Shown here: piece by piece, positions 6,201 to 44,671 of the stretch | How the letters are laid out: each line of letters begins with the position of its first letter | Position numbering within the stretch: position 1 is the first letter of the stretch | NCBI RefSeq assembly: GCF_021917145.1 | Contig: NW_025813728.1 | Coordinates: forward strand, 344,515-408,514 | Origin: Hypomesus transpacificus | Taxonomy: Eukaryota > Chordata > Actinopteri > Osmeriformes > Osmeridae | Length of the DNA stretch: 64,000 nucleotides | Direction: 5' to 3' | The notes under the pieces: generated by a model | Databases searched by the model: none | Told to the model about the DNA's origin: nothing | Seen by the model: only the letters and a program-made list of their open reading frames with translations | Made by a program: the position numbers and the translations under genes

Positions 6201-6263
6201 GTGAAAAGGACAGTGAACACAATATTGAGTTCTCGTTTCCTCTCAGCACAGCAGACTACAACC

Positions 6264-20950: not shown

Positions 20951-20970
20951 TGCCTGATTACATTGTTGCT

Positions 20971-21561
20971 CTGTCAGGCCAAATAGTGTCCTAGGGCCAA
21001 ATAGTGTCCTACCTGACGTCACAATGCCGTTCCGAAGCGAGGACGCGTCCGTCGCTATGCCGACCTTAAATTCCTGAGATTTCTATGCGTGCTAGCAGGA
21101 AACTGTCATGGTTGCTATACTGGTTACTAGGTAGGAAGTTTTGTATTTAGGCTTATTTAAACCAGTTTATTCTACTCTACTATATAAAGTTTTGACTCGT
21201 TTGATAGCTGGTGCTAGCTGGCTAGTTGTTTTCGTCAAAATAATTCACTTAGTTAGCATAAATTTTAACAGACCGGGAAGGCAACACGTATAGTATTCTA
21301 CCTGCGCGTGTTGCTGTCTTGGGAATGTCGAACAAGTCAAAACTTTAAATAGTAGAGTAGAATAAACTGGTTTAAATAAGCCTAAATACAAAACTTCCTA
21401 CCTAGTAACCAGTATTGCAACCATGACAGTTTCCTGCTAGCACGCGTAGATATCTCAGGAATTTAAGGTCGGCATAGCGACGGACGCGTCCTTGCTTCGG
21501 AACGGCATAGTGACGTCAGGTGGGACACTATTTGGCCCTAGGACACTATTTGGCCTGACAG
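20971..21561. mobile_element. Foldback element with about 225-bp inverted arms, 591 bp
   Basis: The arms (about 20971-21200 and 21335-21561) are inverted copies with few mismatches, beginning CTGTCAGGCCAAATAGTGTC on each side. The tip also has a direct repeat of GGCCAAATAGTGTCCTA. There is no transposase frame. The exon frame is restored if the element plus one copy of the flanking CT is removed, which suggests a 2-bp target duplication. The superfamily is unclear. Confidence 0.85.
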
Positions 21562-21779
21562 CTCCAATTAATAATAGGGTACGTGTGGCTAAGTACTACT
21601 GGAGTGTCTACTGCTGCTTGAAACCAGGTTGTACACCCAGGTCGCAGGGTTACTGGGGTCCTGACAACAATGGCCGGGTGGTGACGCTCACTGTGCCGCA
21701 GCTGGAGGTCTGGCTGACTGAGTATTATGGGATGCAGTTCTCTGTGTTTGGTGGGCAATGTTGATGATTTAACAAGTTC

Positions 21780-22649: not shown

Positions 22650-25600
22650 ATGGGACCTTTGATCCAAGATGTCCGCTTCCAAACAATCCTCGTGCTTCTC
22701 ACCTGCCTGCCCGTTCCAAGTACTACAACATTCTCACACGCACAGTTTACCGATGCATGAAGGCGCCTATGCTGATTTGAGTTTTTAACACTTATAATCG
22801 CAACTGTGGTTGAAGCCACAGTTTAACTTTGACTTATTTTAAATATTGTGCTACGTGTGTATTCTCACGAGTGGGAAATTCCAAACAGTAAAATATAACA
22901 GACGCAACTTTGTTTCCCCACTAGATAACGCCGCCTTCAACCTCGTCGTCCCTTCGGAGCCTGTGATTGGTTTTGAGGGCGATGACATCATCCTTCCCTG
23001 TCGCCTGTCTCCCCAAAACAGCGCAGCTCACATGCGGGTCACATGGTTCAGGCAGGGGCAGTTTGATTCCCCCCTGTATGGGATTGACAACGGGAGGGTG
23101 ACTGTGAGACAGGACTACCTGGGCAGAGTGAACATGTCCACCCAGGGGCTGGAGAAGGGCGATGTGTCTCTGGGGCTGAAGGGAGTCCTGCTGGCTGACA
23201 GAGGAGAGTACAGGTGCCAGGTCTTCTACCAGGATTGGATTAAGGAACAAGTTGTCAACGTCCAGATTAAAAGTAAGTCAATGTTTTTAGTGAAGGGTAA
23301 TAAGTGTAAGTAATTATGGAAAGTTATTCTGAACTTATTCAGGTCAATGTGAAGTCAATTTTCTGCAAATTTCTTCCCAATTTCTTTCCTCTTTATTGGG
23401 ACCAGGGAGGGGAAGTGTCCCTAAGATCTCCATAGCAACACGCAACAAAACCTTCATCCAGCTGAGCTGCAGCTCTGAATTCTGGTACCCTGAACCTCAC
23501 ATGCTGTGGCTGGACCACCTTGGAAAGGAAGTGACATCAGCACAGACGGAGGAAGCGAGACAGTCTCGTGACCTGTTCTCCATCAGCAGTCGAGTCAAAC
23601 TGGGGAAGGAGCGACTCCAGGGCATCTCGTGTGTGGCGATGTCACATGACAGGAAGTCCAGGCTGGAGTCTGCTATGAAGGTGACGGGTGAGTTTGGGGG
23701 TGAGAAGGTTAAGTGGTTGCAGATTCCTAGTTACAGGAATAGCACAGTACTGCATGTGTGTAGGCCTACATCTCTCTCTCTCCTTGTTTAATTACACGGT
23801 TAACTGAAATACTACTGGTGCTCCAATGATAGACTTCATCTGACCTCTGCTTCCTACCCCTCGACTTCCTACTGCTTTTGTGTGTCACCTGCATTAAATT
23901 GTTTTGTCCACATGCGCACTACTCACCTGTGATTTAACCCTGAGTTTAACCCCATGAACAGCCTTGTGTGTTCTTTTGTTAACCTGTCTCAGTTTTTAAT
24001 TTTTTTAATGAATGTTTCACGTTGCCTGATGTAACGTTGCAATTTCCCCCAAGGGATTAATTAAGTCCCTGCCAACTTCTCTGCCTTCCAGTTTCCCATA
24101 ATCCTCCCTCCCTCTCTCCTTGTTGGTTCTAAGATGACGATCTGTAGGCCAATATATCTGTCCCTGTTATAAAGGACAGTATTTTTGAACAAACGTTCTC
24201 TCTCCTGTAACAGAGGGGTTTTACCTCGGTAGCGTGGAGGACCGCGGCTACGTCTACGCCAGTCTGATTCCCTTCTTCCTGACCCTGGTGTCCATCTCGG
24301 CGTCCACTGTCTACACCCTCTTTCAGGGACAACGTGAGTCTCTAACATTCCATTTTGCATTTAGTCATTTAGAGAGGGAGTCAGGTAGCTGAGCGGTTAG
24401 GGATACGGGTTAGTAATCTGAAGGTTACTGGTACCAATTTGGGAATCGAACTGGCAACCTTAAGATTACCAGCCCGCTCAGCCATCTGACATCTGACAGC
24501 CGGCTTGTCAGCTGGTATTGTGTCGTGCATCGGCCTGGTTCACCTTTGTGGACGACGCAGTCAGATTTCTAATTCATGCTTTCAATGTTGTTGTCACGGA
24601 ACATCTTTGTTGACAAGTCCTCACCAGATTGTTTTTCCTCCTGTTTTCAGATGTTAAGAAAAGACTTAATAGTTTGGGTAAGTTTACTGGTAGTAATACT
24701 ACTGGTACTACAATGACTTCAATTTCTACCACTACGACTACTACATTTACATTTAGTCACTAGTTCTACTACTAAGTCACTAGTTCTACTACTATTGATA
24801 TTGCTATTATTGCTACCAGTATTACTAATACTACCAAAACTAGTTCAAGTACTACCAATGTTACTATTAATAGCACTACTACTATTGGTAATACTACAAT
24901 TACTGCTAATGCACTATTGCTAGTTATACTACTATTATACTACTACTAGTATATTTTACTGTTGATTGTTCTTCTACAGGTACACTCTTGCACTTTTTGA
25001 GTTTCATGTTATTTAATTGTAACTTGTTTAACTGCATGCTCTTATGGTTCTTCCCTTTGGCACTTATTTGGTTTTTCACAATTTATGCTTCATGTTTTGG
25101 CTGCTTATAATATTTGGGGCAACCTCGTTGTTATGATCAGTGACCTATGCTCTTTTGTAAAACTCTCTTTTGGAAGTCGCTTTGGATAAAAGCATCTGCT
25201 AAATGCATAAATGTAAATGTACTACTATTACAAGTACTACCACTACTGTTAGTACTACTACTACATTTAGTATAGAATATTTTACTTGTAACAAAAATGT
25301 GTTTTACTGCTCTAAAAGTGTTAAACATATTAACAAATATCTTTCAATTATCAATGCAGATGACACACAAACAGAGATAGATAAAGCCGAAAAAGGTAAA
25401 AAGAAAAGTGTATTTTTTTATATAAGAAATATTTATGGTAAATCGAATGTTAAACTCTACATATGTAATTGTAAATTATGGTTCTATATTTCACAGAAAG
25501 ACGTGACTATTTTAACAGTATAAAGAAAAATGAAGAGTTGTTTGGTAAGTGTTCTTCTGTTGAAAGATAAATCCATGGTTAGATTGACAGTAAAAGTACC

Positions 25601-26551
25601 ATTGTTGAGATTAGACAGAATGTATACATGTGAAAATTACACACAGCTTGATATACATTGATGAAAGAACATATTTTTACTCAATAGAAATCACTGGCAA
25701 AATCCCTGACTCTGGTAACTATGACAACCACCTTTAATTATCAAGTCACTATAAGATACCCTCATGCACATGGGGATCATCTGCAAACGCAAAAATAAGT
25801 TTACCTTTTGTCTTCTTCTCTAGTTTGGAACTTAATGGTGGAGTGCGCAGGTAATTGTTATTCTCAAATTATAATACTATCACCGCAACAGTGTAGCTGA
25901 ATGAACATCTATTGGGCTTATAAACAGAATAATTATAGATGGAACATTTGTAGAGAGGTGGTGTACTATAAGGTGTGCAGCATTGCAAGTATTGACAATC
26001 ATCCTCTCCTTACAGAGGAGGTGACGTTTGACCCTGACACGGCACATAACTGCCTGCACGTATCAGAAGAGCACACATCTATCAAGTGTGGACAGGTCGG
26101 TACAGGACAATGTACAAACCAAAGGTTTGGAAAGGTTCAGTGTGTCTTGGGAAGGACAGGGTACGCTTCAGGTAGACATTACTGGGCGGTTGATCTGGGG
26201 AACAACAGTCAGTGGAGTGTGGGAGTCGCCCAAGACCCTGAGAACAGGGGGTCGGATATCTCCATCCGCCCAGACAACGGCTACTGGAGTATCTGTGTAA
26301 AGGGAGGAATGCTGCAGACTGTTGAGGAATCACCTACTGTTCTGCCTTCAGAACTGACGCCTGCTACTCTGGGAGTGTTTCTGGACATTGAGAGTCAGAG
26401 AGTCACTTTCTTCAACGTGAAGAAGAGGTGTCACATCCACTCCTTCTCTTTCTCTGAGAGATCTACCAAGGAACTGTTTCCTTTCTTTGGACCTTTGACT
26501 GGGTGTAAAGAGGAGCTCAGAATTACCCCCACCCACTCAAGCTTAGAGTGA
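22650..26551 (+). CDS. Butyrophilin-like receptor (IgV-IgC-TM-mini-exons-B30.2)
   Basis: Ten exons, all phase 1 joins, 506 residues: 22650-22719 signal peptide; 22925-23272 IgV (LPCRL, VTWFRQG, DRGEYRCQV); 23406-23687 IgC (LSCSSEFWYPEP, ISCVAM); 24214-24333 TM (IPFFLTLVSISASTVYTLF); mini-exons 24651-24677, 25360-25395, 25497-25544, 25688-25714 and 25824-25850 (27, 36, 48, 27 and 27 bp); 26016-26551 PRY-SPRY (TFDPDTAHNCL, YWAVDLG, WSVGVAQ, LGVFLDI, VTFFNV). This is the butyrophilin architecture: an extracellular Ig pair and a cytosolic B30.2 sensor joined by small symmetric exons. Every exon has GT-AG sites and stays in frame, so the gene looks intact. The ligand and role in T-cell or innate regulation cannot be read from sequence. 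Confidence 0.9.
24370..24490. repeat. Two SINE fragments head to head
   Basis: A + strand SINE head (GTCAGGTAGCTGAGCGGTTA, to about 24432) is followed at once by an inverted fragment (GAATCGAACTGGCAACCTTA to GCCATCTGAC), forming an imperfect palindrome in the intron after the TM exon. Confidence 0.7.
24686..24955. repeat. Degenerate ACT trinucleotide repeat
   Basis: A long irregular run of ACTACT, ATTACT and related triplets lies in the mini-exon region of the butyrophilin-like gene. A homologous run is at 39470-39745 next to the pseudogene copy. Confidence 0.8.
24958..25216 (+). repeat. L2-like LINE 3' end fragment
   Basis: It matches the 3' end of the L2-like units at 34619-34880 (TTCTACAGGTACAC..., TTTAATTGTAACTTG, ending GTCGCTTTGGATAAAAGC). 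It is inserted in the ACT repeat and absent at the homologous place in the pseudogene block (about 39710), where the repeat is uninterrupted. Confidence 0.75.
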
Positions 26552-26559
26552 ACGATGAG

Positions 26560-28040
26560 ATATTATTGGGTAGATGGGTCTCATAAAAATCAGATTTATT
26601 GTATAAAAAGCCTTTTAAGCAATGCGAATTGTCAAGCACAGGTATAAACAAAGTAGAGTTTCAAGTTTGGTATGATAGCACCACAGTAGTTTTCTTACAG
26701 TGACTTAAGTCTATGCCAAACACAATTGGTTTCAAGATCAGATTAATCAATTTACAATACATCATTGCACATTTTGGATAATACAAATATTAAATCATGT
26801 AAGATTTTGTTTTCAAACAATGTTAAATTTGTATTTGAATGGGCTTTATGTTTTAATTTGTAAGTAAGTCTATCTGAACATATTATAGACTATAATAGCA
26901 ATGAAAACAATGTAAAAACAATGATAATACATGCAATGTAAATGATGTCCCTCAATTCTCATAAAACTGATGACAAACATGTGAATCGGTTGTTTTTCTT
27001 CACACAGGCTGATCTACAGGGGGGGCAAGGGGGGCAGCTGCCCCCCCACTCTAGAGCCTTGAACCCCCAGCTGCCCCCCTAACTTTGATGATCCAAAAAC
27101 TGTACTTGTAAAAAACAAAAAGCCACTATGTCCACAAGCTTATCAAAACATTGAACTGAACAATACATTTACTGAAAGTGAACAATTATAAAAAAAAGTA
27201 TTTTAAATGTATTCTTAGCCCCTCAAATAGCTACGTCCCTGCATCAAACGTGCAGAGCGGCGTTCACACAGTCTGGCTCGCACACAGGGAGTCTGCTGCG
27301 ATGCGGTGGCACTGCATCCCGGCAAAGAATGGAGACACACGTTTAACTTAAAGTTACATTGGTAATGAATGTAATGTATGCTAAAAACGATTCAGCATCA
27401 GCAAAAACAGCGAGTCTATTACGTTAGCCAAAAGTCAAATTGCTTCATTTTTAGGAGCACATTGATTAGTTTTGATTTTAGTAAAGACATGAACAGCTTA
27501 ATATATAATATAAACTCTTGTTTGTATCCATAACGTTTACGATGGTCGCTGTTTCGCCAATGTTACGTTACAACACACAATAATACAGGGCCAGTTGGGG
27601 GATTTTTATATGACTAGCTAAGCAGTCTTCAATTCACTCATGCTCCCATATCGTTTGTGAAAGTAGAGTGAAGTGCCTTGCCCAAGGACACAACGTAATT
27701 TTTGCACGGCCGGGAATCAAACTGGCAACCTTCAGATTACTAGCCTGCCACCCCATGTAAAATGTTCTAGATCCATCACTGACGAAAGAAATGTAGGCTA
27801 CAGCAACATCGACGATGTTTTGTGTCCGAGTTCTTTCTTTGATGTGTCATCGGACGTGAAAAGTAATTATTTATTCCACTTCCACAGGTGTCGTTTTGGT
27901 TAAGACAGCCATGTCCTTAGATACCAATGTCAAGATACAATCGAAACATCAATGAACACGTTGGTGGTTTCCTCACACAGTGTGCTGGTACAGGAAGGTA
28001 GTATATGTTAACTCCAGTGTTGTTCAACAGTTTTATCTAT
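26560..28040. other. Intergenic stretch, 3' flank of the butyrophilin-like gene
   Basis: Conserved flank (26560-26990) matches 40350-40800. An hAT-like remnant lies at about 27014-27241 (GGGGGGCAGCTGCCCCCC at one end, GCTACGTCCCTG at the other). A SINE fragment on the - strand lies at 27656-27760. From 27770 to 28040 it matches 40810-40925 plus 42259-42355 in the second block. Confidence 0.6.
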
Positions 28041-28044: not shown

Positions 28045-28809
28045 TTGTAACCGGGTAGTTTTAGGACCCAGGAGCCCACAGCTTCTTACTTTTTAAATCT
28101 ATTTTATTACAGTTTGTTTTTAACTATGTTTTACTATGGACTGTGGCACTCTGAGATTCAGAATGTAGAGTGCGTTATAAATTAAATTAATTATTATTTT
28201 TATGTATGCACTGCTGCTGTTGTTTATTACTAATACAAGTATTTTCTACTACAGGTGTTTAGGTCTGCCACTGTTTTTTCCAGTATTAGTTTCTTACAGT
28301 TTTGTTTTGCTTAAAGGGCTGGTTTTCTGTGCTTATTGTTTTGGGGGTTTACTTCTATTTTTGAGCCTTGGTTGTGTTGGGCTGGCTAACCTGGTGATGG
28401 TGTTTGCAGTCAGTGTGTTTTATCCTACAATGTCTAAATGGTTGCTATGATATGTAGATGTGATGTGAAGATAATATTTAGTGTGGCTCTTTATATATGC
28501 ATCCCTAGTCACGTGTGTTGTAGCCTTCCCCAAGTTATGAGTTCCCTCAACCATATGTACGCTGTTTTAGGCCCAAGTAATGTAGGCCTACAGTCACACC
28601 TGCTCTTAAGTGTTTGTTATTATTGCAGCATGTGCCGTCTGATTTTAAAACTGTGGCCATAATAAACTTAGTATATATGTTTGATACCACCTCCTCTGTG
28701 ATAGTTCATTTGATTGGTCAGGACACTAGTCAGAGTTATAGTATTTCCAATTGAGGATCTTTCGCCCGATCTGTGAGAGTGGCGTAGTCGAGCACCCCGC
28801 CACACAGTT
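28045..28809. other. Insertion of about 760 bp absent from the second block
   Basis: In the duplicated block the flanks meet directly (near 42350-42362). Here they are separated by this stretch, bounded by CAGTTGTAA and CAGTTATAA, a possible target duplication. It contains a hydrophobic 82-codon frame (28202-28450) without homology I recognise. The type of element is unknown. Confidence 0.5.
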
Positions 28810-31800
28810 ATAATTGGTTTTGTCCTTCTGGTTCGATTGACAGAATCCTGATAGGGTGTTGATTATTATTCCTTGGGGAGAACAAGGGCCGAACCACATC
28901 CTTGTATTCGGGCCCATCATCAAACATGTGAAGAACAGAACCAGTTACAGCGTTGTAGAAAGTCACCTTCTTGTTGCAATAATCCAGATCGACGCCAACC
29001 TTTTCTGGAATATCTTTACCAGACAGACAATCATCATCATCGGGGGTTGTAGGAGACTTTGCTTTCAGTGTTTCTCCATTAGACAGCCTGATGAACCAAT
29101 AACCACGACGAGGCCTACTTAAATCCAACTTTCCGCCGCTAACCGCTGTTTCCCGGGCAACGCCCAGCACCCAGTCAACCTTGTCCTTAACGTCCACCTC
29201 CCAGTAGGATCTCCAAGCACGACCTATAGTACCCAACACGTAGGGCTCATCGGTACCGACGCCCGTCCATTGCATCGTTTTCTCGTCGATCTCCAGGTTA
29301 GGGTGGGCTGTGTCCACATCCAGAGTGACGTTAACTGTGGAGAAAAAGGAGGAAAGACAAGTCAGACAATTGTGAATTTGGTATTCTTTTTTATGGATGA
29401 AAATGTTGTTATTGTGAATGATGTGACGTACAAACACTTACCGCCAAACACACGTGAAAAATCTGAAATGATTTGAGAAAAAACGCATAAAAGATTTGTA
29501 GATTAATATATTAACTTAATTACAAATTAATTACATAATTACAAAAACTAAATGTATTACTAACTATGACAAACCCATGTCCGAAGTCCTACTTTGACGT
29601 GATGTTTGTGTTGGACCATCTTTAACACCTGTACCAGTAAACAATACACCAGAAGATCCACATTTTGTTAAAGGTAATGATGATTGCAAATTACATTATT
29701 TACTTACATGTGTTGTGTACAGTTTGTCTATACTGTTCTTTTTAAGTGACATTGGCGTTGTATGTTATAGACTATAATGTAATGTGTAGTTGAGTACTGT
29801 GCTAAATTCTTAAGCACCCACGAAAGAATGACATGAATATTGTCTTAACAATGTTTTGTCTTCTGTATTTGTGTGGCAAAATAAACGTACAATGTTATGA
29901 TTAAAATTGAAGTGAAAAAGTAGATTCAATGCAAAACATCTGAAAGAATTTTTGAAACACGCACAAACGATTTTTTTACAAATTAATTACATAATTACAA
30001 AAACGAAATACTATTACTAACTATGACAAACCCATGTCCGAAATCCTACCTTGACGTGATGTTTGTGTGAAACCATCTTTGACAGCTGTTCCAGTAAACA
30101 ATACATCAGCAGATCCACGTTGTGTTAAAAGTAATGATGAATGCAAATTACATTATTTACTTACATAGGTTGTGTACAGTTTGTCTATAAAGTTCATTTT
30201 AAGAGGCAATAGCGTTGATGTTATAGAATGGAATCGAATATGTAGTTTCTTCAATTTTCTAACTATAAGTTTATATGTTGTTCATTCCTACTTTGATGTA
30301 AGCTTGTTTTTAGTAAGTGTGTACAGCCTTTTTTACTCCAGAAGGTACCATTTAAAGTAAAGAAAATTTTTTGTAATTACAAAAAGAAAATACTATTACA
30401 AACTATGACAAACCTATCGTTAAAGTCCTACCTTGATGTGATGTTTGTGTCGAATCATCAACACCTGTACCTGTAAAAAATGTATCCGCAGATCCACATG
30501 AACATTCTTTCAGTAGAGGTAATGGTGATTGCAAATTACATTATTTATTTATTTACGTGTTGTTTACAGTTTGTCTAAACTGTTCATTTTTAAAGACATT
30601 CAACTTATCTTCATGTTCATGAAATCATATAGTATCGACTAGTGTAAACCACCTTTTTTAACCTTTTTTACACCATGAAATACAATTTAAAGTAAAGAAA
30701 ATGTTTATAATTACAAACAAAAAAATACTTTGACAAACTATCTTAAAATCCTACCTTGACGTAATGTTTGTGTAAATTCATCAACTCCTGTAAACAGTTA
30801 ATCAGCAGATCCACATGAACATTCTTTCATTAGAGGTAATGGTGATTGCAAATTACATTATTTATTTAAATGTTGTTTACAGTTTGTCTAGACTGTTAAT
30901 TTTTAAAAACATTCAATTCAGCTTCATGTTTCATGAAATCATAGTATCGACTAAAAGTGTAAACCACTTTTTATTTTTTTTATTTTACACCATAAAGTAC
31001 AATTTAAAGTAAAGAAAATGTTTATAATTACAAACAAAAAAATACTATTACTAACTATGACAAACCCATGTACAAAGTCCTACCTTGACGTGATGTTTGT
31101 GTGAAACCATCTTTAACAGCTGTACCTGTAAACAATAAATCAGCAGATCCACATTTTGTTAAAGGTAATGATGAATGCAAATTACACTATTTACTTACAT
31201 GTGTTGTTTACAGTTTGTCTATACTGTTCATTTTAAGAGGCAATAGCATTGATGTTATAAAATGGAATCGAATATGTAGTTTCTTCAATTTCTAACTATA
31301 AGTTTATATGTTGTTCATTCCTACTTTGATGTAAGCTTGTTTTTAGTAAGTGTGTACAGCCTTTTTTACTCCAGAAGGTACCATTTAAAGTAAAGAAAAT
31401 TTTTTGTAATTACAAAAAGAAAATACTATTACAAACTATGACAAACCTATCGTTAAAGTCCTACCTTGATGTGATGTTTGTGTCGAATCATCAACACCTG
31501 TACCTGTAAAAAATGTATCCGCAGATCCACATGAACATTCTTTCAGTAGAGGTAATGGTGATTGCAAATTACATTATTTATTTATTTACGTGTTGTTTAC
31601 AGTTTGTCTAAACTGTTCATTTTTAAAGACATTCAACTTATCTTCATGTTTCATGAAATCATATAGTATCGACTAGTGTAAACCACCTTTTTTAACCTTT
31701 TTTACACCATGAAATACATTTTAAAGTAAAGAAAATGTTTATAATTACAAACAAAAATATACTATTTTTATAGTATTATTAGTAGTACTATTTCTATACT

Positions 31801-34800
31801 GTTCATTTTAAGAGGCAATAGCATTGATGTTATAAAATGGAATCGAATATGTAGTTTCTTCAATTTCTAACTATAAGTTTATATGTTGTTCATTCCTACT
31901 TTGATGTAAGCTTGTTTTTAGTAAGTGTGTACAGCCTTTTTTACTCCAGAAAGTACCATTTAAAGTAAAGAAAAATGTTTGTAATTACAAAAAGAAAATA
32001 CTATTACAAACTATGACAAACCTATCGTTAAAGTCCTACCTTGACGTGGTGTTTGTGTAGAATCATCAACACCTGTACCTGTAAAAAATTAATCAGCAGA
32101 TCCACATGAACATTCTTTCAGTAGAGGTAATGGTGATTGCAAATTACATTATTTATTTATTTACGTGTTGTTTACAGTTTGTCTAAACTGTTCATTTTTA
32201 AAGACAGTCAACTTATTTTCATGTTTCATGAAATCATAGTTGGCTAAGACTGTAAAGCACTTTTTATTAACCTTTTTTACACCAGAAAGTACAATGAAAG
32301 TAAAGAAAAATGTTTATAATTACAAAAACAAAATACTTTGACAAACTATCGTTAAAATCCTACCTTGACGTAATGTTTGTGTAAATTCATCAACTCCTGT
32401 AAACAATTAATCAGCATATCCACATGAACATTCTTTCATTAGAGGTAATGGTGATTGCAAATTACATTATTTATTTAAATGTTGTTTACAGTTTGTCTAG
32501 ACTGTTAATTTTTACAGACATTCAACTTATCTTCATGTTTCATGAAATCATAGTATCGGCTAAGAGTGTAAACCACTTTTTTAAAATATTTTTTACACCA
32601 TAAAGTACAATTTAAAGTAAAGAAAATGTTTATAATTACAAAAACAAATACTATTACTAACTATGACAAACCCATGTGCAAAGTCCTACCTTGATGTGAT
32701 GTTTGTGTGAAACCATCTTTAACACCTGTACCTGTAAACAATTAATCAGCAGATCCACATTTTGTTAAAGGTAATGATGAATGCTAATTACATTATTTAC
32801 TTACGTGTGTTGTTTACAGTTTGTTTATACTATTCATTCTCAGTGGCATTAGCATTGTATGTTATAGAATGTAATGTGTTGTTTATTTAATTTCCAAATA
32901 TAGGCTATTTATATGTTGTTCATTCCTACTTTGATGTAAGCTTGTTTTTAGTATGAGTGTAAAGCCTTTTTTTACACCAGAAAGTACCATTTATAGTACA
33001 GATTTTTTTTATAATTACAAAAAGAAAATACCATTACAAACTATGACAAACCTATCGTTAAAGTCCTACCTTTATGTGATGTTTGTGTAGAATCATCAAC
33101 ACCTGTACCTGTAAAAAATGTATCCGCAGATCCACATGAACATTCTTTTATTAGAGGTAATGGTGAGTTGAGTGTAATAGTGATTGCAAATGAAATATTT
33201 ATTTATAGGTGTTGTTTACAGTTTGTCTAGACTGTTCATTTTAAGTATTTAACTTGTCTTTGTGTTTCATGAAATCACAGTATCAGCTAAGAGTTTTAAG
33301 CACTTTTTTTTACCTTTTTTACAACACCAAGAATACCGAAAACGATAACAGATATTACCGCAGATACCTGACACCGTAACCACTGCTAAAAACAGGACCA
33401 ATAAGACCCACTGGCTCATAATTAAGTGCAAACCCAACCACACTCCTGAACTACACTAAACTAGCAGGGGTGCCTACAGCTGCCTGAAGGGGGTGCCAAT
33501 ATGCCAATTCTCCACAAACTGAAATGATAGATGAAAACCGCGCAGAGATTTCTTTTTTTAAAATTCTCGTGCGCCCCCCACTTGACATGAAAAAATGCCG
33601 CCCCGGGCGGCTGCCCGGTTTGCCCGTGCCTAAAACCGCCCCTGGCTGATGACACGCAGCTGTACCTGTCGTTCCCCCCCACCGATCCGGGGATCTCAGC
33701 TAGGATTGAGGCCTGCCTTGCAGACATCTCCGCCTGGATGACCGAGCACCACCTCAAGCTGAACCTCGCCAAAACAGAACTTCTCATCATCCCAACCAAA
33801 CCCTCCATCTCCAACAACCTCTCAATCACCCTGGGATCTGCGACGGTGACCCCTTCATCCTATGCCGGGAACCTTGGGGTTACCATGGATGACGAGCTCT
33901 TCCTCACGGCCCACATTGCTGCGGTCTCCCAGTCGTGTAGATTCACCCTCTACAACATCCGGAAGATCAGGAGATACCTGTTTGAGCACTCCACCCAGCT
34001 GCTTGTCCAAGCAATGGTCCTCTCCAAGTTGGACTACTGCAACTCGCTGCTCGCCGGTCTCCCAGCATGCGCAACCCGCCTTCTCCAGAGGATTCAGAAC
34101 GCAGCGGCCCGCCTGGTCTACAATCTACCCAGACGCTCCCACGTTACCCCGCTCCTCATCTCCCTCCACTGGCTACCCATAACGGCCCGCATCTGATTCA
34201 AGACCCTGGTACTGACCTTCCGAGCAGTCAACGGGACTGCACCCGACTACATCAAGTCTCTCCTGCAGCCTTACACCCCCACCCGCCACCTACGGTCTTC
34301 TTCAGACAACCGTCTGGTGGTCCCACCGCTCAAGACCGCCCGGTCCCAACACAAGCTCTTCTCCTGCCTGGCACCCCAGTGGTGGAATCAACTCCCCACC
34401 TCCATCAGAGACACCGACTGTCTCTCCACCTTCAAGAGAAGGCTCAAGACGCACTTGTTCCGGGAGTACAACGGTACTTAGGAATGGTTTGCTGAACTCA
34501 ATGCTAGTTTCCTCAAGGATCAGAATGACTCTTGCTTAGAGACTGTTGCTCTTGTTGGTTAGTGGTACCTGATTTAAACTGTTGTTTTCTATTTTAGTTA
34601 ATCTTATTTTTATTTTACTGTTGCTTGCTTTTCTACAGGTACACTTGCACTTAGAGATTCATGTTGTTTAATTGTAACTTGCTTAACAACATGCTCTTAT
34701 GGTTTTTCCCTTTGGCACTTACTTTTTGGTTGTTCACAATGTGTGCTTCTTGTTTTGGCTACCCGCAATGCTTTATGCTTCTATCTTGTTGTTATTATCA

Positions 34801-37800
34801 GTGACCTATGCACTTTGTAAAGCTCTCTCTTGGAAGTCGCTTTGGATAAAAGCGTCTGTTAAATGAATAAATGTAACTATGACAAACCTTTCGGTGAAAT
34901 CAGACTTCGACGTGATGTTCGTGTAGAATCACCTGTACCTGTAAATAATGAATCAGCAGATCCACATGAAAATTATTTCGTTAGAGATAATGATGATTGC
35001 AAATAAAATTATTTATTTACATGTTGTTTACAGTTTGTCTATACTGTTCATTTATTTTCATTTCATATTTCTTCAAGACTTTTCTGTTGTTTTTTGTACC
35101 TAAGACTTTTGTGCTTCTGGTTCAGTTCTGTGACTGCACCTTATCAAATATAATGAGCCAAGTAGTTATGTATCCTAGCTCTAAATGTTTAACTGGAAAG
35201 TGCCTAAATAACTACACTGCTCAAAAAAATAAAGGGAACACTAAAATAACACACCTAGATCTGAATGAATGAAATAATCTCATTAAATACTTTTTTTATT
35301 GTTCCATTGATAATTACTGTGTTATTTTGTTATCAGCACATGCAACTATGTAAAGAAAAAAGTATTTAATGAGATTATTTCATTCATTCAGATCTAGGAG
35401 TGTTATTTTAGTGTTCCTTTTATTTTTTGAGGTGTATACTTTGAGCTAAGAGTTGCCACCATTATCTTCCAAGTAAGTAAAAGATATTCAATTTATCTTC
35501 ATGTTTCAGAAAGCATATTATCACCTAAGAGTTTTAAGAACTTTTTTTGTACCTTTTTTATACCCCAAACAATAGAAGAAGATAGCAACGCAGATAACCA
35601 CTGCTATAAACACGATCCACTGGTTCATAATTAAGTGCAAACCCAACCACACTCCTGAACTACACTAAACTAGCAGGGGTGCCTACAGCTGCCTGAAGGG
35701 GGTGCCAATATGCCAATTCTCCACAAACTGAAATGATAGATGAAAACCGCGCAGAGATTTCTTTTTTTAAAATTCTCGTGCGCCCCCCACTTGACATGAA
35801 AAAATGCCGCCCCGGGCGGCTGCCCGGTTTGCCCGTGCCTAAAACCGCCCCTGGCTGATGACACGCAGCTGTACCTGTCGTTCCCCCCCACCGATCCGGG
35901 GATCTCAGCTAGGATTGAGGCCTGCCTTGCAGACATCTCCGCCTGGATGACCGAGCACCACCTCAAGCTGAACCTCGCCAAAACAGAACTTCTCATCATC
36001 CCAACCAAACCCTCCATCTCCAACAACCTCTCAATCACCCTGGGATCTGCGACGGTGACCCCTTCATCCTATGCCGGGAACCTTGGGGTTACCATGGATG
36101 ACGAGCTCTTCCTCACGGCCCACATTGCTGCGGTCTCCCAGTCGTGTAGATTCACCCTCTACAACATCCGGAAGATCAGGAGATACCTGTTTGAGCACTC
36201 CACCCAGCTGCTTGTCCAAGCAATGGTCCTCTCCAAGTTGGACTACTGCAACTCGCTGCTCGCCGGTCTCCCAGCATGCGCAACCCGCCTTCTCCAGAGG
36301 ATTCAGAACGCAGCGGCCCGCCTGGTCTACAATCTACCCAGACGCTCCCACGTTACCCCGCTCCTCATCTCCCTCCACTGGCTACCCATAACGGCCCGCA
36401 TCTGATTCAAGACCCTGGTACTGACCTTCCGAGCAGTCAACGGGACTGCACCCGACTACATCAAGTCTCTCCTGCAGCCTTACACCCCCACCCGCCACCT
36501 ACGGTCTTCTTCAGACAACCGTCTGGTGGTCCCACCGCTCAAGACCGCCCGGTCCCAACACAAGCTCTTCTCCTGCCTGGCACCCCAGTGGTGGAATCAA
36601 CTCCCCACCTCCATCAGAGACACCGACTGTCTCTCCACCTTCAAGAGAAGGCTCAAGACGCACTTGTTCCGGGAGTACAACGGTACTTAGGAATGGTTTG
36701 CTGAACTCAATGCTAGTTTCCTCAAGGATCAGAATGACTCTTGCTTAGAGACTGTTGCTCTTGTTGGTTAGTGGTACCTGATTTAAACTGTTGTTTTCTA
36801 TTTTAGTTAATCTTATTTTTATTTTACTGTTGCTTGCTTTTCTACAGGTACACTTGCACTTAGAGATTCATGTTGTTTAATTGTAACTTGCTTAACAACA
36901 TGCTCTTATGGTTTTTCCCTTTGGCACTTACTTTTTGGTTGTTCACAATGTGTGCTTCTTGTTTTGGCTACCCGCAATGCTTTATGCTTCTATCTTGTTG
37001 TTATTATCAGTGACCTATGCACTTTGTAAAGCTCTCTCTTGGAAGTCGCTTTGGATAAAAGCGTCTGTTAAATGAATAAATGTAACTATGACAAACCTTT
37101 CGGTGAAATCAGACTTCGACGTGATGTTCGTGTAGAATCACCTGTACCTGTAAATAATGAATCAGCAGATCCACATGAAAATTATTTCGTTAGAGATAAT
37201 GATGATTGCAAATAAAATTATTTATTTACATGTTGTTTACAGTTTGTCTATACTGTTCATTTATTTTCATTTCATATTTCTTCAAGACTTTTCTGTTGTT
37301 TTTTGTACCTAAGACTTTTGTGCTTCTGGTTCAGTTCTGTGACTGCACCTTATCAAATATAATGAGCCAAGTAGTTATGTATCCTAGCTCTAAATGTTTA
37401 ACTGGAAAGTGCCTAAATAACTACACTGCTCAAAAAAATAAAGGGAACACTAAAATAACACACCTAGATCTGAATGAATGAAATAATCTCATTAAATACT
37501 TTTTTTATTGTTCCATTGATAATTACTGTGTTATTTTGTTATCAGCACATGCAACTATGTAAAGAAAAAAGTATTTAATGAGATTATTTCATTCATTCAG
37601 ATCTAGGAGTGTTATTTTAGTGTTCCTTTTATTTTTTGAGGTGTATACTTTGAGCTAAGAGTTGCCACCATTATCTTCCAAGTAAGTAAAAGATATTCAA
37701 TTTATCTTCATGTTTCAGAAAGCATATTATCACCTAAGAGTTTTAAGAACTTTTTTTGTACCTTTTTTATACCCCAAACAATAGAAGAAGATAGCAACGC

Positions 37801-37984
37801 AGATAACCACTGCTATAAACACGATCCACTGGTTCATAATTAAGTGTGAATCCAACCACAGTCCTGAACTACACTGGTCCATCGCTGAGGCCAATGTGCT
37901 CTGCTCCATAACCGAATATAGGAGAAACAGGAGAATCAGCAGCAGCAGCAGGGCTGCTGTTGTAGTCCGTTTGATGACTCTCAT
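28808..37984 (-). CDS. Membrane-anchored B30.2 protein with mini-exon array (gene X)
   Basis: The 5' exon 37762-37984 encodes 74 residues with two hydrophobic spans (ALLLLLILLFLLY and WIVFIAVVICVAIFFY) and ends in phase 1 at AAAG|GTACAA. Extra Met-TM exons with the same phase and donor lie at 35553-35628 and 33314-33419. Mini-exons with both splice sites: 33070-33108, 32690-32731, 32364-32396, 32040-32078, 31465-31503, 31084-31125, 30755-30787 and 30432-30470 (33, 39 or 42 bp). A 21-bp exon (29442-29462) follows, then PRY-SPRY 28808-29334 (LDVDTAHPNL, SYWEVDV, WVLGVA, VGVDLDY, VTFYNA). No Ig exon is seen. The likely product is a short membrane anchor, a variable stalk of TQTSRQ-type repeats, and a cytosolic B30.2 domain. 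Start choice is inferred from conservation with gene Y. Exon use is inferred from splice signals and phase. Confidence 0.7.
29560..33260 (-). repeat. Tandem array of mini-exon units in gene X
   Basis: About ten units of roughly 300-450 bp repeat here, each with a mini-exon flanked by TTTACAG and GTAGGA. Exon types alternate: 42 bp (peptide core VKDGFTQTSRQ), 39 bp (VDDSTQTSHQ) and 33 bp (VDEFTQTLRQ). Each unit also carries GGTGTAAAAAAGGT, the 3' end and donor of the Met-TM exon, so the amplified unit included the tail of that exon. Two units (exons at 29593-29634 and 30050-30091) have lost the usual acceptor AG; an AG 6 bp further in would still keep frame. Confidence 0.85.
33466..33645. mobile_element. 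hAT-like remnant (second copy 35675-35854)
   Basis: The right end reads CCTAAAACCGCCCCTG, an inverted CAGGGGCGGTTTTAGG terminus of hAT type, with a CAGGGGTGCC at the left. No clear target duplication is seen; it abuts the L2-like sequence. Confidence 0.5.
33646..34880 (+). mobile_element. L2-like LINE fragment, 3' end of ORF2 (copy 1)
   Basis: The frame from 33738 encodes the C-terminal part of a non-LTR reverse-transcriptase polyprotein: LAKTELLIIP, the LGVTMDDELF stretch, DYCNSLLAGLP, LQRIQNAAARLV and LHWLPITARI, then a stop at 34194 where the family normally continues. The frame after it (for example LRSSSDNRLVVP, WWNQLP, FKRRLKTHLF) is preserved. The 3' tail ends GTCGCTTTGGATAAAAGC. It is a 5'-truncated, dead copy. 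Copy 2 is at 35855-37089. Confidence 0.88.
35215..35434. mobile_element. Tc1/mariner-type MITE (second copy 37424-37643)
   Basis: The inverted ends CACTGCTCAAAAAAATAAAG and CTTTTATTTTTTGAGGTG lie at a TA target. The arms extend inward with matching segments (GATCTGAATGAATGAAATAA and its complement). The homologous site in gene Y (about 44455-44472) is empty, reading straight through ACTACTTTGAGC, so insertion followed the block duplication. Confidence 0.88.
35629..37837. repeat. 2209-bp tandem duplication, copy 2
   Basis: The head-to-tail partner of 33420-35628, with the same contents in the same order. The TM part of the gene X 5' exon (37769-37837) forms its end, so copy 1 created a further Met-TM exon at 35553-35628. 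Confidence 0.93.
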
Positions 37985-37999
37985 TTCTGAAGCAGGTAC

Positions 38000-39410
38000 G
38001 TTAGGCTGGACAGTTAGCAGCACCTGCATGTTTATGGGAATAAACATAATTTTTTTTTCACCCCTGATTGAAATACACGGACATGGCCTCTCAAGAGCTA
38101 CAAACACACAGGAAAAACTGAACATCTATCAGAGCGTGATCATTTTGTTTTTAAACTTTACAGTGAATAGATATACAACATTCTGCAATCTAGATGACTG
38201 AAAGAATTTGAGAATTCACTTAAAAACACGGATGTGTTATAATCCCAAACACTATCTCCTTGTGTCAGTACACATGTTTAATTTAGCAGTATATTTCGAT
38301 TTTAAGGACGGGCAAAAAGACTTAAAAGGTTTGGGAAGCCTCTGGTATAGTAAAAGTTATTAAGCCATACCTTCCTTTTCCAGTGACTGCTTGTTCAGTT
38401 GTTGCCTTTCAGTATCTTGCTTTTGGACCTTGCACGTATACCTGAAGTTAATGTTTAACAACTGATCAAAAAAATGTATTTTATCCAGGAAACAGCAGCG
38501 TCTGCAGTTATGCAAGAGAGTGAGTGAGAGCAAGAGTAACAAAGTTTGTGACATGGAGGAAGATAAAGTGAGGAGAAGTTACTGAACTTCTGTGTTATTC
38601 AGGGCTACAAGGGTTTACTAAACCTGACTGCAGGAATCATCACTCTGGTTATAACTGAAAAAAAGTAAAATGTCAATTACCGGTTGTAAATTGGAAAAAA
38701 TATTTTGTTACACACAATACAATATAGTAGAAGTTCCACCGTTGCCTAGAGAACAAAATGGAGCAGAATGCTGAGGACGGGTGACCTTTGACCCAGTCAT
38801 GAGACAGATGAAGTACTATAATCCCCTGCCCTTGGCCTCAATATGGATTGGTTTTATTACCGGATGTAGTGATCCTGTGATATTTCCGACGAGAGATTAG
38901 AGCATGAGAAAAAATTAGAATAAATTTGATTGAGGTGTTTCATTAGTTGATAGGCATCTTTACAGAGTATGTGGGTCAGTGGTCTGTGAGTGTCAGTAGA
39001 TGTGCTACAGCAGTGAGTGATGCTTGCAATTTAAGCACACACGCACACACATTTGCACACATGCACACATTTGCACACATACATACACAGTTGCAAACAA
39101 AGAACGAAATAACATTCTTCTAGAACGACAAGATACTTTTTTTTTTTTCAGTATTGTACAAGAAACTGTCAATTTCGTCTTTTTGTGAATTTCAAGATCT
39201 TTACTTCATAAAACAGCTGATATTCTTAAGACTTTCCAGTGAGGTTAGGTTACCTTCTCTTAAAATTTTCACAGTAAGGGTATTAATTTCTTCTTAGTTA
39301 ACCAGAGGACATCGTGGTTGTCAGTTGAAGAAGAACAGGGACACGACAAGGAGTCTGAAGGTTGATCCAGGTGTGTGTGACAGGAGGAAGAACAACAAGA
39401 AGATATAGAG
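38000..39410. other. 5' flank of gene X
   Basis: It matches 44690-46260 upstream of gene Y closely, apart from a MITE present only there. No further coding exon could be supported on either strand, including no Ig-type or long signal-peptide exon. A CA-rich stretch lies at about 39034-39090. Confidence 0.5.
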
Positions 39411-39469
39411 AACCGGCAACCTTCTGATTAATAGCCCGATTCCCTAACCGCTCAGCCATCTGACTCCCA
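39411..39469 (-). repeat. SINE fragment at the block junction
   Basis: AACCGGCAACCTTCTGATTA to CAGCCATCTGACTCCC is a truncated tRNA-Leu-type SINE. It lies exactly where sequence homologous to the gene X/Y upstream flank ends and sequence homologous to the butyrophilin-like gene begins. Confidence 0.75.
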
Positions 39470-40303
39470 GTACCAGTAATAATACTACTGGTACTACTAT
39501 GACTTAAATTTCTACTACTACGACTATTAGTTCTACTAGTATTACTATTGCTACTATTACCACTATTACCACTACTTTTACTATTACTACTAGTGTTACA
39601 AATACTACCACAACTAGTTCAAGTACTATCAATGTTACTATTACTAGCACTACTACTATTGGTAATACTACGATTACTACTAATGCACTACTGCTAGTTA
39701 TACTACTATAACTAGTACTACCACTACTGTTAGTACTACTACGACATTCAGTGTAGAATATTTTACTTGTAACAAAGCTTTACTGCTCTAAAAGTGTTTA
39801 ACGTATTAACAAATATTTTTCAATTATCATTACAGGTGACACACAAACTTAGAAAAGTTAGAAAATGCAGAAAAAAAGTGTATAACATTATTTATATAAG
39901 AAATATTTATGTTAAATCGAATGTTAAACTTTACATGTGTCATTTTAAACTCTGGTTCACAGAAGGACCTGATTTATATTAACAGTATAAAGTAAAATGA
40001 AGAATTGATAATACAAACATATTTTTAATCAATAGAAATCACTGGCAAAATCCCTGACTCTGGTAACTAATCATTCTTAATTTTTAATAATCAATTTAAA
40101 CCCAGACAACAGCTACCGGAGTATTTGTTTTGAGGATGCAACGCTGCGGACTGTTGAGTTGCCCATGGAACTGAAGCCTGATACTCTGGGAGTGTTTCTG
40201 GACATTGAGAATCAGAGAGTCACTTTCTTCAACGTGGAGATCTACCAACGAACTGTTTCCTTTCTTTGGACCTTTGAATGGGTGTAAAGAGGAAATCAGA
40301 ATT

Positions 40304-40338
<35 letters not shown>

Positions 40339-40345
40339 TTCTCAA
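39470..40345 (+). pseudogene. Decayed 3' part of a butyrophilin-like gene
   Basis: The stretch aligns with 24686-26551. It has the ACT repeat, a mini-exon relic (GTGACACACAAAC near 39837), the exon pair near 39960-40060, and a B30.2 remnant from 40096 (NPDNSYRSICF, LKPDTLGVFLDIENQRVTFF). The first half of the B30.2 exon is gone, about 38 bp are missing after 40233, and a run of 34 C (40305-40338) interrupts the end. Signal, Ig and TM exons are absent. The 3' flank up to 40800 is also conserved. Confidence 0.85.
40305..40338. repeat. Run of 34 C
   Basis: A pure homopolymer inside the pseudogene B30.2 end, at the place where the intact gene reads ACCCCCACCCAC. Such runs are unstable and often mis-sized in assemblies. 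Confidence 0.9.
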
Positions 40346-40926
40346 GCTTAGCGTGAACAATGAGATATTACTGAGTAGACAGGTCTCATAAAAATCACAT
40401 TTATTGTTTAAAAAGCCTTTTATGCAATGCGAATTGTCAAGCACAGGTATAAACAAAGTAGAGTTTCAAGTTCGGTATGATAGCACCACAGTAGTTTTCT
40501 TACAGTGACTTAAGTCTATGCCAAACACAATTTGTTTCAAGATCAGATTAATTATATCATAAGCAAAAATTCTAATACATCATTTAAAATTTAGGATAGT
40601 AAAAATATAAAATCATGTAAGATATTGTTTTAAAACAATATTGAATTTGTATTTGAATGGGATTTCTGTAATGATTAGTAAGTAAGTCTACTATAGCCTA
40701 TAATAGCAATGAAAACAATGTAAAAACAATGACATCACGGTACGCAATTGTATGTCCCTCAATTCTCATAAAACTCTGGCAGATAAACGTGTGAATCGGT
40801 TGTTTTCCTTCATTTACATGGAAGAAATGTACAGCAACACTGACGATGTTGTATGTCCGAGTTCTTTCTTTGATGTGTCATCAGACGTGAAAAGTATTTC
40901 TTTCTTTCCACAGGTGTAGGTTTAGG

Positions 40927-42258: not shown

Positions 42259-42323
42259 GGTTTAGGTGAAGACAGCCAGACACCTGACACAGTGTGCTGG
42301 TACAGGAAGGTGGTAGGCCTACT

Positions 42324-44671
42324 CTAGTGCTGTTCAACTGTTTCATCTATGACGTTATAATTGGTGTTTCTATCTGGGTCAATTGACAGAATCCTGATAG
42401 GGTGTTGATTATTATTCCTTGGGGAGAACAAGGGCCGAACCACATCCTTGTATTCGGGCCCATCATCAAACATGTGAAGAACAGAACCAGTTACAGCGTT
42501 GTAGAAAGTCACCTTCTTGTTGCAATAATCCAGATCGACGCCAACCTTTTCTGGAATATCTTTATCAGACAGACAATCATCATCATCGGGGGTTGTAGGA
42601 GACTTCGCTTTCAGTGTTTCTCCATTAGACAGCCTGATGAACCAATAACCACGACGAGGCCTACTTAAATCCAACTTTCCGCCGCTAACCGCTGTTTCCT
42701 GGGCAACGCCCAGCACCCAGTCAACCTTGTCCTTAACGTCCACCTCCCAGTAGGATCTCCAAGCACGACCTATAGTACCCAACACGTAGGGCTCATCGGT
42801 ACCGACGCCCGTCCATTGCAGTTTTCTCGTCGATCTCCAGGTTAGGGTGAGCTGTGTCCACATCCAGAGTGACGTTAACTGTGGAGAAAAAGGAGGAAAG
42901 ACAAGTCAGACAATTGTGAATTTGGTATTCTTTTTTATGGATAAAAATGTTGTTATTGTGAATGATGTGACGTACAAACACTTACCGCCAAACACACGTG
43001 AAAAATCTGAAAGGATTTTAGAAACACGCATAAAAAATGTGTATTCATTTTGTATAAATGTATTTATAAATTAATTTAAGACATTCAACTTATCTTCATG
43101 TTTCATTAAATCATAGGATGTAAAGCACTTTTTTAAAACCTTTTTTAAACCAGAAAGTACAATTTAATGTAAAGAAAATGTTTATAATTACAAACATTAA
43201 AATACTATTACTAACTATGACAAACCCATGTACAAAGTCCTACCTTGACGTGATGTTTGTGTGAAACCATCTTTAACAGCTGTATCTGTAAACAATAAAT
43301 CAGCAGATCCACATTTTGTTAAAGGTAATGATGAATGCAAATTACATTATTTACTTACATGTGTTTGTCTATACTGTTCATTTTAAGTGGCAATAGCATT
43401 GTATTATATAGAATGTAATGTAACGTAGTTTAATTAATTTCTAACTATAGGCTATTAATATGTTGTTCATTTCTACTTTGATGTAAGCTTGTTTTTAGTA
43501 AGAGTGTACAGCCTTTTTTACACCAGAAAGTACCATTTAAAGTAAAGAAACATGTTTATAATTACAAAAACAAAATACTATTACAAACTATGACAAACCT
43601 ATCGTTAAAGTCCTACCTTGACGTGGTGTTGGTGTAGAATCATCAACACCTGTACCTGTAAAAAAGTAATCAGCAGATCCACATGAACATTCTTTCATTA
43701 GAGGTAAAGGTGATTGCAAATTACATTATTTATTTACATGTGTTTGTCTATACTGTTCATTTTAAGTGGCAATAGCATTGTATTATATAGAATGTAATGT
43801 AACGTAGTTTAATTAATTTCTAACTATAGGCTATTAATATGTTGTTCATTCCTACTTTGATGTAAGCTTGTTTTTAGTAAGAGTGTACAGCCTTTTTTAC
43901 ACCAGAAAGTACCATTTAAAGTAAAGAAACATGTTTATAATTACAAAAACAAAATACTATTACAAACTATGACAAACCTATCGTTAAAGTCCTACCTTGA
44001 CGTGATGTTTGTGTTGGACCATCTTTAACACCTGTATCTGTAAACAATACACCAGAAGATCCACATTTTGTTAAAGGTAATGATGATTGCAAATTACATT
44101 ATTTACTTACATGTGTTTGTCTATACTGTTCATTATAAGTGGCAATAATATTGTATATTGTAGAATGTAATGTAATGTGTAGTTGGGTACAGTCATAAAT
44201 TCTTATGCACCCACAAAGGAATGACATGAATATTGTCTTAACTCTTTTTTTGGCCTCTGTTTTTGTGTGGCAAAATAAAAGTGCAATTTTAAGAGTAAAA
44301 TTGAAATGAAAAAGTATTTTCATTTCATTATTTCTTAAAGACCTTTCTGTTGATTTTTGTACCAAAGACTTTGGCTCAGTTCTGTGATTGGACCTTATCA
44401 AATATAAGTACGTACGTATGTATCATTGCTCTAAATGTTTAACTGGAAAGTGCCTAAATAACTACTTTGAGCTAAGAGTTGCCACCATTATCTTCCAAGA
44501 AAGTCAAAGATATTCAACTTATCATGTATATGAAATCATAGTATCAGCTAGAGTTTTATGCACGTTTTTGGTACCATTTTTACACCACGAACAACAGCTG
44601 ATAGCAACGAAGGAAGCTAACACCCCAGCCAGTAAAACCAGGACCCACAACGCTGTCTCAATGACAGTCAT
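42324..44671 (-). pseudogene. Membrane-anchored B30.2 gene Y, frameshifted
   Basis: A compact sister of gene X. The 5' exon 44575-44671 has 32 codons with one TM span (ALWVLVLLAGVLASFVAI) and ends in phase 1. Mini-exons 43996-44037 (42 bp), 43617-43655 (39) and 43244-43285 (42) follow, then the 21-bp exon 42986-43006 and B30.2 exon 42324-42878. All joins are phase 1 with GT-AG sites. Compared with X, two bases are missing at about 42820 (DEKT then shifted), which breaks the PRY frame early while the rest of the domain stays open in another frame. Either a recent pseudogene or a sequence error; the otherwise clean domain makes both possible. Confidence 0.75.

Follow-up and report, generated by a model that had tools for sequence, protein, structure and literature searches.

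The locus described here raises the question of whether a fish gene can anchor a B30.2 domain at the membrane without the immunoglobulin (Ig) ectodomain of a butyrophilin and with an amplified series of small stalk exons. It lies on the minus strand of a 64,000-nucleotide stretch (referred to as the window; C60:344515-408514) in the 437-Mb Hypomesus transpacificus assembly and comprises gene 1, which is the subject of this analysis, and a shorter sister copy, gene 2. As read from the sequence, gene 1 consists of one or more transmembrane (TM) exons, ten stalk exons, one exon of 21 nt, and a B30.2 exon with an intact frame, all of which can be joined in phase 1 (Table 1). We give an even chance to the proposal of a single-locus gene that lacks Ig exons, follows a butyrophilin-like exon plan, and encodes a B30.2 protein anchored at the membrane. 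We read its array as an extreme case of a known process, in which a butyrophilin-like plan is combined with exon amplification like that of chicken BG genes and with a different stalk.

As shown in Table 1, ten sound mini-exons of 39, 42, 33, 39, 39, 42, 33, 39, 36, and 36 nt separate the TM exons from the B30.2 exon, each preceded by AG, followed by GT, and running from phase 1 to phase 1. The original prediction for this locus had proposed at least eight such exons of 33, 39, or 42 nt, together with Met-TM exons, a 21-nt exon, and a B30.2 exon. All of these elements were found, with two further mini-exon copies that have poor donors. The predicted lengths are right for eight exons, but the pair closest to the B30.2 exon measures 36 nt because the first acceptor AG of each now reads TG and a second AG, six bases further on, takes over. 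There are three Met-TM exons in gene 1, namely TM_c, its perfect partial copy TM_b, and the diverged TM_a. TM_c starts with Met and the hydrophobic stretch MRVIKRTTTAALLLLLILLFLLYSV, which precedes ~25 residues and the TM segment MNQWIVFIAVVICVAIFFYCLGYKK; a signal peptide or a further hydrophobic stretch may be present in this exon, the N-terminus of which is basic. Each of the four TM exons (three in gene 1 and one in gene 2) has a 19-residue segment with a hydropathy above 2.4. In all four (TM_b and TM_c being the same at this point), positive charge follows the hydrophobic stretch and there is little before it, except at the basic start of TM_c, which suggests that the stalk and the B30.2 domain would be cytosolic and the short N-terminus outside. 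The frame of the B30.2 exon is intact, and Pfam detected SPRY in it, with PRY falling under its cut-off. All 1024 subsets of the ten exons keep the frame and yield 67 stalk lengths; these are computed combinations, not observed isoforms, and alternative use of the array exons is possible.

Table 1. Exons of gene 1 and sister gene 2, in window coordinates.
Feature	Coordinates	Strand	Description	Basis
TM_c, 5' coding exon of gene 1	37762..37984	-	MRVIKR... hydrophobic stretch, ~25 aa, then TM MNQWIVFIAVVICVAIFFYCLGYKK; ends in phase 1, donor GTACAA	Open frame, donor, hydropathy
Mini-exon D, degenerate, 33 nt	37115..37147	-	TRT instead of TQT; donor GTCTGA	Unit alignment
TM_b, copy of second half of TM_c exon	35553..35628	-	Within 2209-bp tandem copy	End taken as TM_c end minus 2209
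Mini-exon D, second copy	34906..34938	-	Identical to first copy	Unit alignment
TM_a, diverged Met-TM exon	33314..33419	-	MSQWVLLVLFLAVVTVSGICGNICYRFRYSWCCKK; ends in phase 1, donor GTAAAA; may serve as an alternative start	
Array exon 1, type A, 39 nt	33070..33108	-	GTGVDDSTQTSHK	
Array exon 2, type B, 42 nt	32690..32731	-	GTGVKDGFTQTSHQ	
Array exon 3, type C, 33 nt	32364..32396	-	GVDEFTQTLRQ	
Array exon 4, type A, 39 nt	32040..32078	-	GTGVDDSTQTPRQ	
Array exon 5, type A, 39 nt	31465..31503	-	GTGVDDSTQTSHQ	
Array exon 6, type B, 42 nt	31084..31125	-	GTAVKDGFTQTSRQ	
Array exon 7, type C, 33 nt	30755..30787	-	GVDEFTQTLRQ	
Array exon 8, type A, 39 nt	30432..30470	-	GTGVDDSTQTSHQ	
Array exon 9, type B', 36 nt	30050..30085	-	AVKDGFTQTSRQ; upstream acceptor AG lost, second AG taken	
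Array exon 10, type P, 36 nt	29593..29628	-	GVKDGPTQTSRQ; upstream acceptor AG lost, second AG taken	
21-nt exon	29442..29462	-	DFSRVFG, phase 1 to 1	Splice borders and frame
B30.2 (PRY-SPRY) exon with stop, 527 nt	28808..29334	-	Phase 1 start	Pfam SPRY, E 1.8e-11
Sister gene 2	42327..44671	-	One TM exon; mini-exons 44037-43996, 43655-43617, and 43285-43244; 21-nt exon 43006-42986, same as in gene 1; frameshifted B30.2 exon	

We aligned 15 repeat units, 12 from gene 1 and 3 from gene 2. The donor reads GTAGGA in 13 of them and GTCTGA in the two D copies (37147-37115 and 34938-34906), and the length of the mini-exon is a multiple of three in all 15 despite indels between unit types, although, these being copies, few independent events are represented. 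Similarly, the shared phase and splice sites do not amount to ten independent observations because all units were copied from one ancestral unit. The tandem repeat was far above chance, with one stretch detected at a 317-bp period. The units of the array, of types A, B, C, and P, are arranged as A B C A A B C A B' P, with units 5 and 8 identical over 238 columns; this arrangement and the identity indicate that blocks of units were duplicated. Successive units start 377, 335, 318, 575, 378, 338, 317, 385, and 457 bp apart, and each mini-exon would have been copied along with its intron (317 to 575 bp from start to start) through unequal crossing over. In the unit tree, the B unit of gene 2 joins the B, B', and P units of gene 1 (99/99), and the A unit of gene 2 joins the A, C, and D units of gene 1 (97/97). 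The array would thus go back to two or more types of unit, including A and B, which both genes have, and the presence of ten sound units in gene 1 and three in gene 2 implies expansion or loss. Upstream of the array, a 2209-bp tandem copy (window 33400-37817) takes in part of the TM exon, mini-exon D, and a retroelement-like fragment, and its two halves differ by four mismatches, all within the first 16 bases. We note that this fragment, which has a reverse-transcriptase-like frame as judged by eye, occurs after the first D exon and again after the second, and that small-DNA-transposon-like inverted repeats, with 73-bp arms 59 nt apart and 97% complementary, lie at 35224-35428 and 37433-37637 of the window.

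Genome-wide, all counts are among the matches listed, and uniqueness holds at the sensitivity of a loose first-pass search. The array unit gave 17 matches and the 5' region 4, all within the window. With a cut-off of E 1, the TM-plus-stalk protein had 4 matches, of which three are in the window and one (E 0.5) is not. The B30.2 domain gave 75 matches, of which gene 1 scored 100%, gene 2 95%, and the next no more than 45%. The "gene class" that had been proposed is not supported here, the genome having a single locus and a broken copy of it. No relatives were found in bacterial genomes. The proposed absence of an Ig ectodomain held up, because none of the 18 minus-strand open frames of at least 55 aa in 37985-42320 and 44700-46500 matched Ig in Pfam at E up to 0.1, and a six-frame scan of the whole window for the Ig-V signature matched only a butyrophilin on the plus strand. 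This Pfam analysis covered frames of that length in the two intervals and, within 28808-37984, the B30.2 and TM_c exons. A search for a TRIM N-terminus (RING and B-box) found no match near gene 1; its only matches in the window were at 9984 (E 0.003) and 17836 (E 0.54), and the positive control, L012, gave E 2e-30.

Butyrophilins, represented by human BTN2A1 and BTN3A1 and by the plus-strand neighbor, share with gene 1 a TM segment followed by several small symmetric phase-1 exons and a B30.2 domain encoded by a single exon (on the cytosolic side, as judged in gene 1 from charge). They differ from gene 1 in that no Ig-V or Ig-C exon was detected in the latter and its stalk exons are ten-fold, 33 to 42 nt long, and rich in Gly, Thr, and Gln. 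The SPRY part alone has BTN3A1 as its best solved match (56 bits). In the aligned stretch, two basic residues of BTN3A1, which we take to line the phosphoantigen pocket, face Asp in gene 1, making phosphoantigen sensing unlikely. Fish TRIM genes, presumably finTRIM-like, also have a B30.2 exon with an equal start phase and are nearest to gene 1 by score in the genome. They carry an N-terminal RING, B-box, and coiled coil, none of which was found at gene 1, whereas gene 1 has a TM segment and the mini-exon array. Schistosome micro-exon genes, the exons of which are symmetric, likewise have many short exons yet encode unrelated secreted parasite proteins. The pocket of BTN3A1 is described as basic, and BTN2A1 as being without such a pocket (PMC10533412). 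In chicken BG genes, a long array of small symmetric exons, the number of which expands and contracts, follows the TM exon (PMC4046983, PMC5938342), and their tails contain a variable number of 13 to 36 small exons (PMC4046983) and are proposed to form a coiled coil (PMC5938342). Gene 1 resembles BG genes in the amplification of small symmetric exons past the TM segment. However, BG genes have an Ig-V domain, 21-nt heptad exons thought to form the coiled coil, and no B30.2 domain, whereas gene 1 has array exons of 33 to 42 nt, a single 21-nt exon, a B30.2 domain, and no Ig that we could find. Among the titles and abstract openings listed, which leave most subscription journals outside coverage, we found no Ig-less B30.2 butyrophilin with amplified stalk exons.

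Ordinary butyrophilins of the same genome offer a closer comparison. The butyrophilin Ig-C family gave 34 matches, and we read the eight places with a nearby B30.2 exon (L046 and L052 to L058). A pattern scan revealed plausible phase-1 small exons, predicted from sequence, in seven of the eight loci and none in L052, and the tripeptide TQT, which is common to the array exons of gene 1, was absent from the candidate small exons listed for the eight. By self-comparison, tandem stalk-exon units were detected in three loci (L054, L057, and L058) and in none of the other five or the plus-strand neighbor. L054:1105-1759 contains two units, 83% identical over 320 bp, with the phase-1 21-nt exons ASIIHEK and DKIIKKN; L057 2947-4279 (reverse strand) contains three, at 75 to 79%, with the exons ETVNFMI, VKLEGEK, and ETLIK (the third of 15 nt); and L058 2832-3194 (reverse strand) contains two, at 83%, with the exon ENLKKQL, the acceptor AG of the other copy having changed to TG. 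The idea that no other butyrophilin in the genome amplifies stalk exons was thus rejected. This indicates that the array differs in degree (ten units, larger exons, and other chemistry) more than in the kind of process, and ordinary Ig-butyrophilins would show the same unit copying on a small scale. The plus-strand neighbor, an Ig-butyrophilin at 22.8-26.5 kb, lies tail to tail with gene 1 at a distance of 2.3 kb and matches V-set (E 1.4e-10), C2-set_3 (E 2.6e-16), and SPRY (E 1.6e-18) in Pfam. Its small exons, in phase 1, measure 27, 36, 48, and 27 nt, and a fifth of 27 nt, EITGKIPDS at 25688-25714, was read by eye; with the fifth counted, its stalk has 2 Gly/Pro in 55 residues. When the 36-nt exon was compared with the four array types, its score was reached by 16, 3, 14, and 38 of 2000 shuffles, and those of the other three exons by at least 490 of 2000. 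This resemblance stays a hint because the equivalent exon of the paralogue L046, which reads DDIEAELKRRRE (by eye), does not keep TQT.

The full stalk of gene 1 would comprise 133 residues, with 19.5% Thr, 14.3% Gly, 14.3% Gln, 21 Gly/Pro, and a mean hydropathy of -1.14. Because the stalk is so rich in Gly, Thr, and Gln, a rigid ruler is unlikely, and by composition a flexible tether is likelier than a rod. The tunable distance between membrane and sensor put forward in the original prediction is thus unlikely to be set by a stiff stalk. In BTN3A chains, a modelled juxtamembrane coiled coil controls pairing (PMC10665462), and the Gly/Thr/Gln-rich stalk of gene 1 differs from it, as it does from the coiled-coil tail proposed for chicken BG (PMC5938342). 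The product of gene 1 would be a flexible tether that varies in length and in number of repeats and keeps a protein-binding B30.2 domain at the membrane.

A number of observations weigh against this reading of gene 1, and several of them would fit a neutral, decaying array, that is, an Ig-less B30.2 remnant in which a unit of intron and mini-exon spreads unselected through unequal crossing over and little or no functional protein is made. The gene model is predicted from genomic sequence. The ten units diverge pairwise by 15.8% in their exons, compared with 14.0% in the 60 upstream columns and 15.9% in the downstream ones, so that use of the exons is unproven, exons varying as much as introns between units. 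Exon-over-intron conservation was accordingly rejected as proof of use. Among the ten exons, no difference was seen in the 9 nt encoding TQT (405 comparisons) or in the donor hexamer (270 comparisons), but equally invariant windows occur in the introns (2 of 136 windows of nine columns and 8 of 142 of six columns). Over the last eight codons, nonsynonymous divergence between copies (pN) is 0.19 and synonymous divergence (pS) 0.04, with pairs that are not independent and with codons carrying several changes scored as amino acid changes; this excess fits relaxed change as well as diversifying change. Further, the first mini-exon (D) has decayed, and the B30.2 exon of gene 2 is frameshifted. The 2209-bp tandem copy is so exact that it may be very recent or an assembly error. 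A neutral array would also be consistent with the retroelement-like fragment and exact 2.2-kb copy inside gene 1, with the single locus in the genome, and with the duplicated stalk unit that lost its acceptor in the ordinary butyrophilin L058. However, the B30.2 frame, the 21-nt exon, and the ten GTAGGA donors of gene 1 are intact, and mini-exon length has stayed a multiple of three in every aligned unit, and we regard neutrality as rather unlikely, if worth serious attention. The B30.2 domain adds a further point on the opposing side, since the whole domain matched the solved structures of TRIM11 and pyrin at 63 bits and BTN3A1 at 58 bits. If the B30.2 exon came from the upstream TRIM cluster and was combined with a new TM segment and stalk, this would explain why TRIM11 is the best solved relative and why the best other domain in the genome, L036 (45%), is a TRIM by Pfam (RING, B-box, and TRIM coiled coil), as is L040. 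In the upstream loci L009 to L012 of this contig, RING exons adjoin B30.2 exons, and the phase 1 start of the B30.2 exon is common to TRIM genes. In a B30.2 tree of 26 rows, from which matches of fewer than 110 profile positions were left out and in which RING was checked for L009 to L012, L036, and L040 among the TRIM-labelled rows, the gene 1/gene 2 pair sits on a branch of 1.95 as a weak sister to L047 (82/86) and is nearest by path to TRIM. Yet this tree is weakly supported with a long branch; the second-best other domain, L044 (42%), adjoins an AIG1-family frame, and its TRIM identity is not established; no convincing RING or B-box lies near gene 1; duplicated stalk units occur in butyrophilins of the same genome; and, to our knowledge, a TM segment with symmetric mini-exons is not a TRIM plan. 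We therefore hold an origin from TRIM to be unlikely.

A loss of Ig exons from a butyrophilin whose stalk now serves as a length ruler, in the manner of the coiled-coil tail of chicken BG, would account for the match in exon plan with the Ig-butyrophilin 2.3 kb away (TM, phase-1 small exons, and phase-1 B30.2), and this plan, like the tendency to duplicate stalk units seen in three of the eight Ig-butyrophilin loci, does speak for a butyrophilin. The variable number of small exons in BG tails (PMC4046983) and the likeness of one neighbor exon to the array exons point the same way. Ig exons may have been lost from a butyrophilin ancestor, but the tree does not group the B30.2 domain of gene 1 with those of Ig-butyrophilins, no Ig remnant was found in the frames and the signature scan, the exon resemblance is not conserved in L046, and 21 Gly/Pro in the stalk speak against a ruler. 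We consider the reading in this full form quite improbable. Of the interpretation that had been put forward, the amplified symmetric exons, TM segment, B30.2 domain, and butyrophilin-like plan stand, whereas descent through Ig-exon loss is a conjecture: the tree firmly favors neither a butyrophilin nor a TRIM origin, and neither the 5' region nor the array unit matched elsewhere in the genome. Alternatively, each mini-exon might supply one TQT anchor for dimeric LC8 (DYNLL), which would zip two disordered stalks into a beaded rod, with splicing and unequal crossing over setting the number of LC8 dimers and the strength of B30.2 pairing. TQT is present in all ten sound exons, with Asp four residues before Gln in each and a spacing of 11 to 14 residues. 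Three copies have lost TQT, namely the two D copies, in which the donor is lost too, and one exon of the frameshifted gene 2; this is no more than suggestive, as the two D copies represent one event. LC8 motifs are of eight residues with a TQT anchor, and linkers of 6 and 9 residues gave homogeneous complexes, whereas a 3-residue linker gave heterogeneous ones (PMC10046861); in ASCIZ, arrays of such motifs are likened to beads on a string (PMC5963919, PMC10046861). The linkers in gene 1 would be of 3 to 6 residues. Published rules disfavor an aromatic residue or Pro at -2, a small residue at -3, and a hydrophobic residue at +2 (PMC6607443), and these preferences are broken in six of the ten exons, with Phe at -2 in three B and two C exons and Pro at -2 in P; the four A-type exons depart from the rules only by Asp at -3. 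A home-made score was built from Table 1 of PMC6607443 using 18 of 31 non-binders, 11 of 12 binders (the twelfth being a duplicate), and 4 weak binders; excluded were peptides lacking a TQT-like anchor, the duplicate, and a shifted bassoon peptide with TQT at its start, and the non-binder KCNQ2 was misanchored. It gave 4.8 for B, 5.8 for P, 1.2 to 2.0 for A, and -0.3 for C, placing B and P above all 18 non-binders, but with a leave-one-out area under the curve of 0.6 it barely separates binders and it ranks highest the types that the published rules disfavor, so we rejected it as uninformative. No paper combining LC8 and butyrophilin was found among the titles and abstract openings listed, and we regard an LC8 ladder as a very doubtful explanation.

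The surroundings of gene 1 bear on the origin of gene 2. A 5' region is conserved ahead of both genes (76% over 1008 columns), and their B30.2 exons are near-identical from ~29468 to 28836 and ~43012-42382 (minus strand), respectively, and sharply diverged beyond; this sharp-edged near-identity suggests gene conversion. Next to gene 2, at 39412-40923 (plus strand), part of the butyrophilin tail (24376-27897) is present as a copy that has no Ig exons, and gene 2 therefore probably arose from a segmental duplication spanning both neighbors. The contig also carries, upstream of the window, a TRIM-like cluster of RING and B30.2 frames (L009 to L012; C60:295000-334999), and at L044 (C17:6008500-6014300) the AIG1-family frame is followed on the same strand by the B30.2 exon, perhaps as one gene. 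Elsewhere in the window, tandem genes resembling DNA/RNA non-specific endonucleases lie at 2867-4251, 6021-7517, 14177-15561, and 18551-21764 (plus strand; Pfam PF01223 in the one frame tested), with similar frames upstream in L012 and L013. There are also a C1q-domain gene at 10648-11310 (minus strand; Pfam E 8.7e-18), a 24-nt tandem repeat of 21.8 copies, open on both strands, at 18029-18551, an acidic-tailed gene at 46500-50400 (minus strand) that we take from its translations to be calsequestrin-like, and a UnaL2 LINE (long interspersed nuclear element) 3' element at 60250-60303 (plus strand; Rfam RF00436).

Overall, if expressed, gene 1 would provide a fish counterpart to the symmetric stalk exons amplified in chicken BG, with a stalk of different chemistry and no Ig ectodomain, and its B30.2 domain would be tethered to the membrane with almost nothing outside to signal through. 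Were the LC8 ladder true, the array would count exons to set the valency of a membrane sensor and would replace the butyrophilin coiled coil. Sister genes with ten and three sound units, together with three of eight butyrophilin loci with two or three, offer a direct setting in which to ask if the number of stalk exons is under selection, polymorphic, or neutral.

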